From contig NZ_PJBJ01000030.1 in NCBI RefSeq assembly GCF_002836475.1, forward strand, positions 682,001 to 746,000: 64,000 bases of DNA, given 5' to 3'. Below, one piece after another: positions 35,492-59,716 of the stretch (its first letter is position 1; every line of letters begins with the position of its first letter). The notes below the pieces were generated by a model, which ran no database searches, was not told the origin of the DNA, and saw only the letters and a list, made by a program, of their open reading frames with translations. The position numbers were made by a program, and so were the translations under genes. Source of the DNA: Flavobacterium sp. ALD4. Lineage in GTDB: Bacteria; Bacteroidota; Bacteroidia; Flavobacteriales; Flavobacteriaceae.

Positions 35492-36427
35492 TTATATTTC
35501 TACACCCCAATTTGCCAATTCCTCAGCGCTCCACAACTCTGGAAAGAATATCCTTCGCTGGTATTTTGGGTGCATGTATTTTCTCCAATCACTTCCTCCC
35601 GTTGCCTCTCCAGTACCTTTTCCGCTTTGGTCAATATATTTAATGGCAACATTCAAATGCTGCATGACCCAGGTGATATTAACGGTATGGTCAAAATGAC
35701 GCATCGCTTTTATCAACTCAGGGTTTTTCTGGTCGCCATCTGGAAGTTGTTTGAATTTCTGCCAGATATTAATGGAGTTGTACTCTTCCATGTGGTCCAA
35801 GAAGGTTTTTTTGTATTTTCTTTCAAATTCTTCTAACAAGTACGACTTCTTGCCTGTTGCGTAGTCTTTACCCGCGGCTTGCCAATATAAATGTTCAAAA
35901 GCATGTTCGTAAGGAGTATCTCTATCGATAGAGCCTCTGTACCTATTATCAATAAGGTTAATCAAGTCAGTAGAAGAAAATTCAATTAATCTGTACTGGG
36001 CACTTTGAAAACCACTAGCAGGAGTCAAGGTGTTCCTGAACTTCATATATTGTTCCACTTCCATACCATTTTCCATAATACTGAAAGAGGTGGTGAGCAT
36101 ATCAAAATACCGACTGATTCTCATTAATCTTTCTGCGAAGAAATCAGTTTTAATATTTTGACAATAGGCAATTTGATTCATTTCCCAAAGAATCATCTTG
36201 AATATCAATTCATTCACTTGATGATACATTATAAAAACCATTTCATCCGGAAGTGTTGTCCTCTGAGTTTGTATATTTAATAAGGCATCGGTCTGGATAT
36301 AGTCCCAATACGTTATTGGTTTGGACCAAAGTAAGCCTTCTAAGTGCGTTTCTGTTTTTTGGTCTATGGATGCATATTTTTTCTCAATTTCGTTTAAAAT
36401 AGCTTCTGCATTCTGACTAATGTTCAT
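35492..36427 (-). CDS. kynA: Tryptophan 2,3-dioxygenase family protein
   Basis: Heme enzyme that opens the indole ring of tryptophan to N-formylkynurenine. The 311-residue protein shows the family segments MYHQVNELIFKMILWEM, SGFQSAQYRLIE and the region expected to hold the heme-ligand His, WVMQHLNVA. It is located in the same leftward cluster as hppD and hmgA, giving tryptophan and tyrosine catabolic entry steps side by side. Its start overlaps the DUF3108 stop by one base (TAATG), indicating translational coupling. Confidence 0.88.
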   Translation of the reverse strand: MNISQNAEAILNEIEKKYASIDQKTETHLEGLLWSKPITYWDYIQTDALLNIQTQRTTLPDEMVFIMYHQVNELIFKMILWEMNQIAYCQNIKTDFFAERLMRISRYFDMLTTSFSIMENGMEVEQYMKFRNTLTPASGFQSAQYRLIEFSSTDLINLIDNRYRGSIDRDTPYEHAFEHLYWQAAGKDYATGKKSYLLEEFERKYKKTFLDHMEEYNSINIWQKFKQLPDGDQKNPELIKAMRHFDHTVNITWVMQHLNVAIKYIDQSGKGTGEATGGSDWRKYMHPKYQRRIFFPELWSAEELANWGVEI

Positions 36428-37197
36428 TATCTTTTTATTTTAAATGGATTGTTCAGTCCTTTAAATTCATCCAAGTCCGCTTTTATTGACCCTACTGCTA
36501 AATCAGCTTTTATTCGAATAGGTAACCTGTTGTCGTCGTCTGAAATCCAAACCGTTAGACTCTCCTGTTCTTTAAAAACACGACCTGATTGCACCAAAGG
36601 TTTAAAGACCATGGATGACACAACACCAAATTTAGTCGTAATATCTTCACGACCTACAAACTTTAACTTAAATTTTGTGGTTTCATCATCAATAAACATA
36701 TTAATGACAATAGACTCTCCTTGATTGATTTTATCAATATTAGGATAATTCCTCAAATAATAAAATGCAGATAAGATGTCTTGAGTATTTTTTGGAGTGA
36801 CAAAAGTTTTTTCGTTTCTGTTTTTATAATCTTTCACCAAAACACTACTGGCTGATTGATTAAAAAAACCTTCTTGATTTTTAATATACCCTCCTTCATT
36901 GATCTTCCTCAAATACTTTAGGGGATTACCGGATTCCTTATCGATATAACTTTCATACAAGTCGTCCACTTTGAAAAAAAAGCGAGACATTCCTGTCGTA
37001 TATCCTTTACCTACAACATGGAACGTTTTTTTATTGTTTACTACGGCGTCTTTGACCTCCAGCGTTGCATACCCAGCATTTACAAAACCATAATGGATTC
37101 GGAATTTAAACCATTCACCTACATCGTAAGCGTCTTCTTGAGGAGCATCGAAACTTACCGTTAATATCAATAATAAGAATAGTATATATTTTTTCAT
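36427..37197 (-). CDS. DUF3108 domain protein
   Basis: A 256-residue exported protein with a signal peptide (MKKYILFLLLILTVSFDAPQ). The rest matches the DUF3108 pattern: GEWFKFRIHYGFVNAGYATLEV near the start and LTVWISDDDNRLPIRIKADLAVGSIKADL at the end. The biochemical role is unknown; the fold is predicted to be an envelope beta-rich domain. It is translationally coupled to kynA (one-base stop/start overlap). Confidence 0.82.
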   Translation of the reverse strand: MKKYILFLLLILTVSFDAPQEDAYDVGEWFKFRIHYGFVNAGYATLEVKDAVVNNKKTFHVVGKGYTTGMSRFFFKVDDLYESYIDKESGNPLKYLRKINEGGYIKNQEGFFNQSASSVLVKDYKNRNEKTFVTPKNTQDILSAFYYLRNYPNIDKINQGESIVINMFIDDETTKFKLKFVGREDITTKFGVVSSMVFKPLVQSGRVFKEQESLTVWISDDDNRLPIRIKADLAVGSIKADLDEFKGLNNPFKIKR

Positions 37198-37242
37198 AAC
37201 TTACTTTGTCTGTTTCATTAACTGAACTTGCAAATTCTGTTC

Positions 37243-37273
37243 CAAATATATTAAAACAAAAAAACTCAGTCAA
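37243..37273 (-). promoter_or_regulatory. Promoter of the DUF3108-kynA-M23 operon
   Basis: Read leftward: TTG (37271-37273), 20-base spacer, TATATTTG (37243-37250). The -33 element lies in the loop of the small-RNA terminator, so the two units are packed back to front. Confidence 0.65.
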
Positions 37274-37290
37274 ATAATGACTGAGTTTTT
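37258..37290 (-). terminator. Terminator of the candidate small RNA
   Basis: Stem ACTCAGTCA / TGACTGAGT with A-run and T-run on the two sides, so it can act in both directions. Confidence 0.85.
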
Positions 37291-37367
37291 ATGCTATTAA
37301 CTAACCAAAAAACTATAAATTATGAAATTTATATCAATACGGAAGGAAACCACCCCTTCCTTTTTGC
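37258..37367 (-). ncRNA. Candidate small RNA between hppD and DUF3108
   Basis: A complete small transcription unit with no ORF. It has a promoter at 37373-37406, an expected start near 37367, a 5' hairpin GGAAGG / CCTTCC with an 8-base loop (37341-37360), an unpaired AT-rich middle and a strong terminator stem. Predicted length is about 110 nt. The DUF3108 operon has its own promoter downstream, so this is not simply a leader. It could belong to a known flavobacterial RNA family such as Flavo-1; I cannot check. Confidence 0.6.
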
Positions 37368-37372
37368 GAGTG

Positions 37373-37406
37373 CAAAGGTAGTTAACAAAACTACATTTTT
37401 AAACAA
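37373..37406 (-). promoter_or_regulatory. Promoter of the candidate small RNA
   Basis: Read leftward: TTG (37404-37406), 23-base spacer, TACCTTTG (37373-37380). The -7 box is exact and the spacing is at the upper limit of the usual range. Confidence 0.6.
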
Positions 37407-37488
37407 AAAATGAAGTTTAACACATCATCAATAAAATCACATGTTGTTCGTCCTTTATTTTTTAACATAATGTAAAAAAAATAGGTTT

Positions 37489-38649
37489 TTACAGCGTTCC
37501 TCGCAATGCTTGCTCTCTCTCTATAGACTCAAACAACGCTTTGAAATTACCCGCCCCGAAGCCTTTGGCCCCCATTCGTTGAATAATTTCAAAAAACAAA
37601 GTCGGTCTGTCTTGCACTGGTTTTGTGAAGATTTGCAATAGATACCCTTCTTCATCTGCATCTACCATTATAGCCAGCTTCTCTATTTCATTTAAATCCT
37701 CCTTCATCATTTTCATGTGGTCTCCCAATCGTTCTGGAATCGCTTGATAATATGTATGAGGTGGAGCAGACAAAAATTCCACACCTCTGGCTTTTAGCTG
37801 ACTTATTGTTTTAATGATATCATCGGTTGCAATGGCAATATGTTGTATTCCCGGTCCACCATAAAAATCAAGGTACTCCTCAATTTGCGATTTTTTCTTA
37901 CCTTCTGCAGGTTCATTGATTGGAAACTTAATGCGTCCGTTTCCGTTGCTCATTACCTTACTCATCAAGGCTGAATATTCTGTGTTAATTTGTTTGTCAT
38001 CAAAAGAAAGGAAATTCACAAACCCCATTACATCTTCATAGAACTTAACCCAGGTATTCATTTCATTCCAACCTACATTCCCAACCATATGGTCAATGTA
38101 TTTTAATCCGGTTGGCTCTGGATTGTAATCAGATTTCCATTCTTTATAACCCGGCAAGAAGATACCCTTGTAATTTTTACGCTCAACAAAAATATGAACG
38201 GTTTCTCCGTAGGTATAAATCCCCGAGCGCACCACTTCACCAAATTCATCTTTTTCAACTGTAGGCTCCATAAAAGAACGAGCACCACGCTTCATTGTTT
38301 CTTCGTAAGCACTAGTGGCATCTTCCACCCAAAGAGCAGCTACTTTCACTCCATCTCCATGCTTTCTCAAATGGTCATTTATAGGAGAGTCTTGAGTTAA
38401 AGGTGTAGTAAGAACGATTCGCACCTTGTCTTGCATCAACACATAAGAAGTCCGATCTTTCACTCCTGTCTCTAAACCTGCGTAGGCTAATGACTGGTAC
38501 CCGAAAGCCGTTTTATAATAGTGTGCTGATTGTTTTGCATTTCCTACATAGAATTCTACATAATCGGTTCCTAATAAAGGAAGGAAATCTTGTGCTCCTT
38601 CAAATATTTTTTCCAGTCCGTATTCTACTGATTTTACTTCTTTATCCAT
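37489..38649 (-). CDS. hppD: 4-hydroxyphenylpyruvate dioxygenase
   Basis: Fe(II) enzyme that converts 4-hydroxyphenylpyruvate to homogentisate in tyrosine breakdown. The 386-residue protein consists of two VOC domains; the iron ligands are expected in IDHMVGNVGW (His), GIQHIAIATDDI (His) and LFFEIIQR (Glu), all intact. It follows hmgA, the next enzyme of the pathway, with about 195 bases between them that hold a dispersed repeat. Confidence 0.95.
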   Translation of the reverse strand: MDKEVKSVEYGLEKIFEGAQDFLPLLGTDYVEFYVGNAKQSAHYYKTAFGYQSLAYAGLETGVKDRTSYVLMQDKVRIVLTTPLTQDSPINDHLRKHGDGVKVAALWVEDATSAYEETMKRGARSFMEPTVEKDEFGEVVRSGIYTYGETVHIFVERKNYKGIFLPGYKEWKSDYNPEPTGLKYIDHMVGNVGWNEMNTWVKFYEDVMGFVNFLSFDDKQINTEYSALMSKVMSNGNGRIKFPINEPAEGKKKSQIEEYLDFYGGPGIQHIAIATDDIIKTISQLKARGVEFLSAPPHTYYQAIPERLGDHMKMMKEDLNEIEKLAIMVDADEEGYLLQIFTKPVQDRPTLFFEIIQRMGAKGFGAGNFKALFESIEREQALRGTL

Positions 38650-38715
38650 TTTTATATATTTTTTATAATTCGGTTTTTTATTATGACCGAAAATGTTGTT
38701 GATTGTTCTAAAGCC

Positions 38716-38795
38716 TAGCCCTGATAACAGTGAAAATCCTTTTTTGAGGTTTTTTAACCGAAAAAAGATTGTAACGAATAGCAGGAAAAAGCTCC
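38716..38795 (+). repeat. Dispersed structured intergenic element, copy A
   Basis: A 5' box AGCCCTGATAACAGTG and a 3' box ending GAATAGCAGG..AGCTCC flank a variable hairpin TTTTTTG-AGGTT / AACC-GAAAAAA. The same two boxes occur at 59575-59716. It lies between hmgA and hppD, antisense to their transcription. From memory, similar elements are scattered in Flavobacterium genomes; the strand given is that of the two shared boxes. Confidence 0.65.
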
Positions 38796-59527: not shown

Positions 59528-59574
59528 TGTTCGGTTTTATGAATACCCAAATCTTGAAACTCCCACAAAGCCTT

Positions 59575-59716
59575 TAGCCCCGATAGAAGTGGAAACCCTC
59601 GTGCACTCCATCCTTTTTTTTTCTGGCAGAAAAGAGCGACCGGAGGAAGCTCCTTTTATAGCATTGAAAAAAACAGTGGAATGAAGGAGGTTGTATCGAA
59701 AAGCGGGATTAGCTCC
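59575..59716 (+). repeat. Dispersed structured intergenic element, copy B
   Basis: Begins with the 5' box AGCCCCGATAGAAGTGGAAA and ends with the 3' box TTGTATCGAAAAGCGGG..AGCTCC, both shared with copy A (38716-38795). An internal GCGACCGGAGGAAGCTCC at 59636-59653 looks like an additional 3' box, so this copy may be composite. A 65-codon frame across it is not a gene. Confidence 0.65.

Follow-up and report, generated by a model that had tools for sequence, protein, structure and literature searches.

The window analysed here, a 64,000-nucleotide stretch of the genome of Flavobacterium sp. ALD4, carries on its minus strand a gene for 4-hydroxyphenylpyruvate dioxygenase (hppD) and a gene for a DUF3108 protein, with a tryptophan 2,3-dioxygenase family protein as a further neighbour (PF03301 above its cut-off; TIGR03036 at 100.6 bits, below its cut-off of 390.7). 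The hppD–DUF3108 intergenic region contains, on the same strand and in this order, a promoter, a hairpin, an AT-rich linker and a terminator, from which a small RNA (sRNA) is predicted. The features, in window coordinates, are as follows.

37489-38649 (-): hppD, 4-hydroxyphenylpyruvate dioxygenase (TIGR01263, 442.9 bits; cut-off 277)
37416-37421 (-): GTTAAA upstream box, probable regulator or RNA polymerase site, at a conserved spacing to the -7 box
37404-37406 (-): TTG, previously read as a -33 element; not conserved
37373-37380 (-): -7 box of the sRNA promoter, TACCTTTG
37258-37368 (-): predicted sRNA transcript, about 111 nt, from promoter and terminator positions and a covariance model match
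37341-37360 (-): hairpin 1, UGGU loop, GGAAGGGG-UGGU-UUCCUUCC, from its fold and compensatory changes
37340-37291 (-): AT-rich linker, from sequence
37314-37333 (-): hairpin 2, UAUAAAUU-UCAU-AAUUUAUA, proposed anti-start-codon loop, from its fold, near-invariant core and start-like complement
37296-37313 (-): U-rich arm, GUUUUUUGGUUAGUUAAU, proposed partner of A-rich leaders; GGTTRGTTAAT present in 37/37 genus copies
37258-37290 (-): sRNA terminator, 13-pair stem and T run, covarying in genus and family
37243-37273 (-): promoter of the DUF3108 operon, TTG-N20-TATATTTG, overlapping the sRNA terminator
36427-37197 (-): DUF3108 protein (PF11306, 185.5 bits)

The start of the transcript near 37368 follows the convention that places the sigma-A box at -12 to -5 (PMC9723704), and a covariance model built from 37 genus copies (model R1) matches 37257-37372 with 135.1 bits (G000:C1:719257-719372). 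The minus strand between 37258 and 37377 folds much more stably than shuffled sequences (z -5.5; equalled by 0/200 shuffles), as does the plus strand between 37258 and 37406 (z -7.6; 0/200). A sequence-only reading of the region had described a 5' hairpin with a 6-bp stem; the hairpin is present, while its stem folds with eight pairs, two of them G-U. Taken alone, hairpin 1 has a mean z of -2.6 against shuffles, falling below -2 in 22 of the 37 genus copies. The terminator stem-loop, AAAAACTCAGTCA-TTATT-TGACTGAGTTTTT, spans 37290-37260. The element displays its own promoter, its own terminator and no conserved ORF, the general features of an intrinsically terminated intergenic sRNA.

Promoters and independence of the sRNA gene

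On the minus strand TTG (37406-37404), a spacer of 23 bases and TACCTTTG (37380-37373) are arranged exactly as the sequence-only reading wrote them. The role it assigned to the TTG, as the -33 part of the sRNA promoter, is not borne out by the relatives, as TAnnTTTG is found in all 37 genus copies whereas TTG lies 17-24 bases upstream in just 15, and about 30% of 10-base windows hold this triplet by background. In F. johnsoniae no -33 motif could be identified (PMC7366714).

A different upstream element is retained. The hexamer GTTAAA is located 41-43 bases upstream of the -7 box in 36/37 genus copies. The spacing is 40-44 bases for 112 of the 114 named loci (the named-locus scan covered at least 119), and 26 of the 36 copies from the rest of the family have the hexamer 38-48 bases upstream. 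Other TAnnTTTG sites in 464 kb of the organism's own genome show no preference for this distance. The named loci have a second GTTAAA peak, at 33 bases (64 cases); it is situated about 670 bases farther along, by eye within the DUF3108 gene. In several genera the box is doubled, the two copies being 10 bases apart, which suggests that it is recognized by a regulator. Four divergent copies from other genera (L112, L116, L394 and L407) contain GGTTGGTTAATAGC and a terminator with no usual TAnnTTTG at the expected place; several of them share an upstream ACGTCTATA, perhaps another type of promoter.

The gene order around the sRNA is well conserved within the genus, where hppD adjoins it at 33/37 loci and DUF3108 at 35/37. 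At 33 loci from other genera DUF3108 is adjacent in 20 and hppD in 15, while 11 of these loci, which are short, contain none of the four neighbours tested. The frequent position of DUF3108 downstream, in the genus and in those 20 loci, would be expected if the RNA were a leader or attenuator acting in cis on the DUF3108-tryptophan dioxygenase operon, with occasional read-through of the terminator. This is improbable. The DUF3108 operon was previously proposed to have a separate promoter with its -33 element in the terminator loop, and this proposal stands: a TTG (37273-37271) at the loop's edge is followed after 20 bases by TATATTTG (37250-37243), and the arrangement of a TTG in the terminator and then TA-n(2-3)-TTTG is kept in 33/37 genus copies. 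Furthermore, the sRNA is present in two genus loci that lack DUF3108 (L029 and L037) and at the short loci without any tested neighbour, and a leader would leave the near-invariant core described below without a role.

It is still less probable that the RNA is part of the 3' end of hppD and is cut from the hppD mRNA. The element does lie just downstream of hppD in 33 of the 37 genus loci; however, it has its own -7 box in every genus copy and a fixed upstream box, and it is retained in the four genus loci from which hppD is absent. Since the sRNA is kept without hppD or without DUF3108, and since its own -7 box is found in 37/37 copies, the sRNA is considered to be a gene in its own right. An independent sRNA gene, with its own sigma-A-type promoter and its own terminator and with a predicted transcript, is strongly supported by these comparisons of sequence.

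Distribution and covariation in the Flavobacteriaceae

A DNA search retrieved the sRNA from 36/36 genus relatives, and weak partial matches from 4 of 23 genomes of other genera. Model R1 matched 383 of 398 genus genomes (the genus set, as used here, includes Myroides and Paenimyroides) and 331 of the 333 that are at least 90% complete with at most 5% contamination. A 2.6 Mb genus genome that is 99% complete (G317) is one of the rare high-quality genomes with no R1 match. In a sample of the order, R1 matched 18 genus genomes, six of the 12 listed genomes from other genera of the family and, weakly, one genome outside the family; a further 151 genomes gave no match.

A second model (R2) was rebuilt with other genera from a base alignment (A2) of 22 of the 37 genus copies and six others. 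At an E-value of 0.001 R2 detected 257 of 397 family genomes, a figure that is inflated, because the model also gives a match of 37.1 bits at another place within 464 kb of the organism's own genome. The family tally therefore relies on bit scores: at least 110 of the 397 genomes (three of these in the genus) at 60 bits or more, and at least 137 at 50 bits or more. This match (L120:9898-10012, plus strand, G000:C1; 37.1 bits) is intergenic and consists of TTTTGGTTAGTTA followed by a strong hairpin, with GTTAAA further upstream and no clear TAnnTTTG; it represents either chance or a diverged paralogue. Two weak R2 matches within the window look, by eye, like ordinary terminators. Some genomes carry more than one sRNA copy: two copies are 280-320 bases apart in G750, G795 and G920, and three are dispersed in G603.

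The terminator shows covariation within the genus, with both sides changed in 6 of its 17 predicted pairs. Family covariation was evaluated in a selected alignment of 35 rows (A4), comprising 28 of the 36 copies from other genera and 7 of the 37 genus copies; it omits the divergent or weak L112, L116, L394, L401, L404, L406 and L407, as well as L383, which is near-identical to L382. The figures hold for these rows, all of which have GUGGU in the loop of hairpin 1. In A4, hairpin 1 and the terminator together have 19 predicted pairs, of which 15 are altered on both sides with pairing kept; in hairpin 1, compensatory changes affect 6 of the 7 counted pairs. Pairing is found in 94.4% of cells, compared with 76.0% in shuffles, the covariation score is reached by 0/500 shuffles, and pairing drops to 36-66% when the structures are slid along the alignment. 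In single-sequence folds most A4 rows have a middle hairpin that holds or flanks CAU, and several fold differently.

The comparison across Flavobacterium that the sequence-only reading had proposed thus came out in favour of its central claim, a self-contained sRNA gene and not a leader: the stems covary, the element is kept in relatives, and promoter and terminator are its own. That the locus holds a real, conserved and independent sRNA gene is almost certain.

The invariant core and its likeness to translation starts

The stems of the RNA change in sequence; its linker hardly does. The sequence-only reading had pointed to the CCTTCC strand of hairpin 1 as a possible pairing element, a role that fits poorly with hairpin strands that vary with compensation, whereas the near-invariant segment is the linker. 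The G-rich loop of this hairpin, which the same reading had also named for pairing, may have a role, being kept as GUGGU in most copies. In the genus the longest near-invariant part is UUUCAUAAUUUAUAGUUUUUUGGUURGUUAAUAGCAUAAAAAC, where R is A in 14 and G in 23 of the 37 copies; in other genera it is UUUUCAUAAUUUAAAGUUUUGGUUGGUUA or a close variant, and the loop of hairpin 2 reads UUUUCAU in most of them.

The complement of this core on the other strand, AACTAACCAAAAAACTATAAATTATGAAA, resembles a translation start. For comparison, a start matrix was derived from 350 genes predicted within 464 kb of the own genome. The core complement scores higher than 92% of these 350 starts and higher than 99.91% of 14,812 other ATGs, and lies at the 99.3rd percentile among 1,565 A-rich ATG contexts. 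In these bacteria A-rich leaders replace Shine-Dalgarno sequences, according to published work. The start-region likeness of the most conserved part of the RNA suggests, at the level of sequence, that the sRNA regulates protein production.

A start-like complement, with its ATG in place in 34/37 genus copies, might alternatively indicate a short gene on the plus strand whose translation start is the conserved core. This reading is exceedingly improbable, and a plus-strand peptide was rejected: the ORFs that open at the core complement are 2-36 codons for amino acids long and show no conservation past Met-Lys, the ATG is missing in three of the 37 copies (L012, L016 and L025), and the conserved -7 box and the covarying terminator sit on the minus strand.

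The sRNA might instead bind or titrate a protein, with the GUGGU loop of hairpin 1 or the U-rich arm contacting an RNA-binding protein and mRNA pairing being secondary. Consistent with such a role, GUGGU is found in 35/35 rows of the selected A4 alignment, and some genomes carry multiple or tandem sRNA copies. Within the genus, however, the loop is GUGGU in 25 of 37 copies and is lost in the other 12 while the longer linker stays, and the start-region likeness of the linker complement would have to be a coincidence. We consider protein binding as the main function unlikely. In five genus copies (L021, L027, L030, L033 and L035) GUGGU is replaced by a loop that contains UCAUA, letters shared, by eye, with the core loop.

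The function that we favour, as a reasoned proposal that is probably correct, is that of a trans-acting sRNA that pairs at translation starts. The loop CAU of hairpin 2, together with the U-rich arm that follows, would pair with target mRNAs over their start codon and A-rich leader; this pairing may alter, in either direction, the translation or stability of the target. As translation in these bacteria does not depend on Shine-Dalgarno pairing, the putative pairing element would be the complement of an A-rich leader and AUGAAA, and not an anti-Shine-Dalgarno sequence.

Searches for targets gave a mixed picture. Seven secondary matches of the DNA search cover the core, and each of them spans, in antisense orientation, the ATG of an ORF; named by eye, these ORFs include a SusC-like receptor, a fasciclin-like protein, a putative glycosidase and a stress-protein-like gene, among others. 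Two of the seven sit in G040 and G042, genomes without an R1-detected sRNA, and the secondary matches can therefore be explained by a general resemblance to gene starts. In the own genome the linker forms predicted duplexes below -16 kcal/mol with 26 of the 350 gene starts, compared with an average of 8.5 and a maximum of 20 for 60 shuffled linkers; it also pairs well inside genes (14/350 below -16; mean -11.06 vs -11.29). Of the duplexes below -14, 63/70 cover the AUG. The 89 genes classed as signal-peptide-like by a crude rule form somewhat stronger predicted duplexes than the remaining 261 (p 0.003), and ATGAAA starts occur in 42/89 of the former and 37/261 of the latter.

Motif counts were made in 150 genomes (54 with the A-type arm and 96 others), with the sRNA's own locus removed and the reversed pattern as control. 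Shortly before ATGA, CTAACCAAAA and CCAACCAAAA were counted 174 and 193 times in the A-type genomes (reversed, 167 and 137) and 119 and 166 times in the others (reversed, 178 and 149). Across the 150 genomes the arm complement thus shows no clear enrichment before ATG, being somewhat higher in one of the four comparisons (193 vs 137) and similar to the control or rarer in the other three, and the A/G variant of the arm is accompanied by no clear matching shift in targets (174:193 vs 119:166). Malate dehydrogenase, the best prediction in the own genome, was rejected as a conserved target; its full motif occurs in the own genome only, with partial motifs in two others.

Relation to known RNAs and significance

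The sequence-only reading had considered both a known and a new flavobacterial RNA family. At the sRNA and in the loci of ten relatives, no Rfam 15 family reaches its gathering threshold. The best of the weak matches, the PyrR binding site (RF00515), was rejected at 26.7 bits (E 0.088) against the 54 required. Flavo-1 (RF01705), which the sequence-only reading had named, was likewise rejected, with no match in 37180-37520 even at E-values up to 10 (42 bits required). Flavo-1 is also a flavobacterial non-coding motif and has two copies in the window. One, at 38713-38792 on the plus strand (72.4 bits; gathering threshold 42), lies between hppD and a homogentisate dioxygenase-like gene on the strand opposite to both, and a second, weaker one is at 59572-59714 on the plus strand (45 bits against the same threshold).

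While outside Rfam, the sRNA probably belongs to a described family, that of Rfp18 from F. psychrophilum. Rfp18 is an sRNA required for the expression of proteases (Guerin et al. 2021, PMC9723704), and is described as an independent small transcript that is widely conserved in the genus and strongly structured, and of which one stem-loop pairs with all predicted targets (PMC9723704). The present sRNA is likewise structured, independent and widely conserved in its genus. The assignment also draws on map position. Rfp11 is at 182,564 and Rfp36 at 840,245 on the F. psychrophilum map (PMC9723704), where hppD is THC0290_0232, and fpp1 and fpp2 are THC0290_0237 and 0238 (PMC5682007). By interpolation an hppD-adjacent RNA, at about 280 kb, would bear a number near 15 if Rfp numbering follows the map. 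Rfp13, Rfp15 and Rfp18 all fit this position and all are named as conserved and structured (PMC9723704); of the three, the choice falls on Rfp18, which is the one said to be widely conserved in the genus. On the basis of position and description, we therefore regard the sRNA as the probable counterpart of Rfp18.

Deletion of Rfp18 lowers the mRNAs of Fpp1 and of the THC0290_0300 metalloprotease in stationary phase (PMC9723704). As the deletion lowered two target mRNAs, Rfp18 is not a simple repressor, which counts against the mechanism proposed above. The own genome contains three M43-type peptidase matches close together (G000:C12:443120-446569, minus strand).

The closest studied mechanism to the one proposed is that of GibS from Bacteroides thetaiotaomicron, which has a conserved unstructured seed with predicted pairing across the start codons of its targets, in a phylum without Shine-Dalgarno leaders (PMC7366714). 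The likeness is one of description, the targets of the present sRNA being putative; GibS is 145 nt long with its seed in the 5' portion (PMC7366714), in contrast to the predicted 111 nt or so of the sRNA. The sections of the Rfp18 report consulted here (PMC9723704) do not mention a reach beyond the genus, an upstream box or a start-region-like core. In the literature searched, as far as its text was accessible, no description of such a family-wide RNA was found, which is no proof of absence. What is new in this analysis is that the RNA reaches across the family, that its upstream box is fixed and that its core resembles a start region.

The explanation as a whole, an independent sRNA gene of about 111 nt that acts in trans at translation starts and is the likely counterpart of Rfp18, is in our judgement reasonably probable. 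A broader and more tentative view is that a family-wide sRNA of the Flavobacteriaceae, with a loop and U-rich arm that mirror the start consensus, might be a broad regulator of translation or mRNA stability biased towards secreted proteins, for which AUGAAA is a common start. Were this view correct, the regulator would be the counterpart of the anti-Shine-Dalgarno sRNAs of other bacteria, fitted to Shine-Dalgarno-free translation.

To our knowledge, few regulatory RNAs of the Bacteroidota have been studied by experiment. This sRNA, present in nearly all examined Flavobacterium genomes and in many related genera, is a strong candidate core regulator. The conserved core renders the control of Shine-Dalgarno-free translation by an sRNA directly testable, and, if the sRNA is indeed Rfp18, it would be a widespread regulator linked to the expression of secreted proteases.
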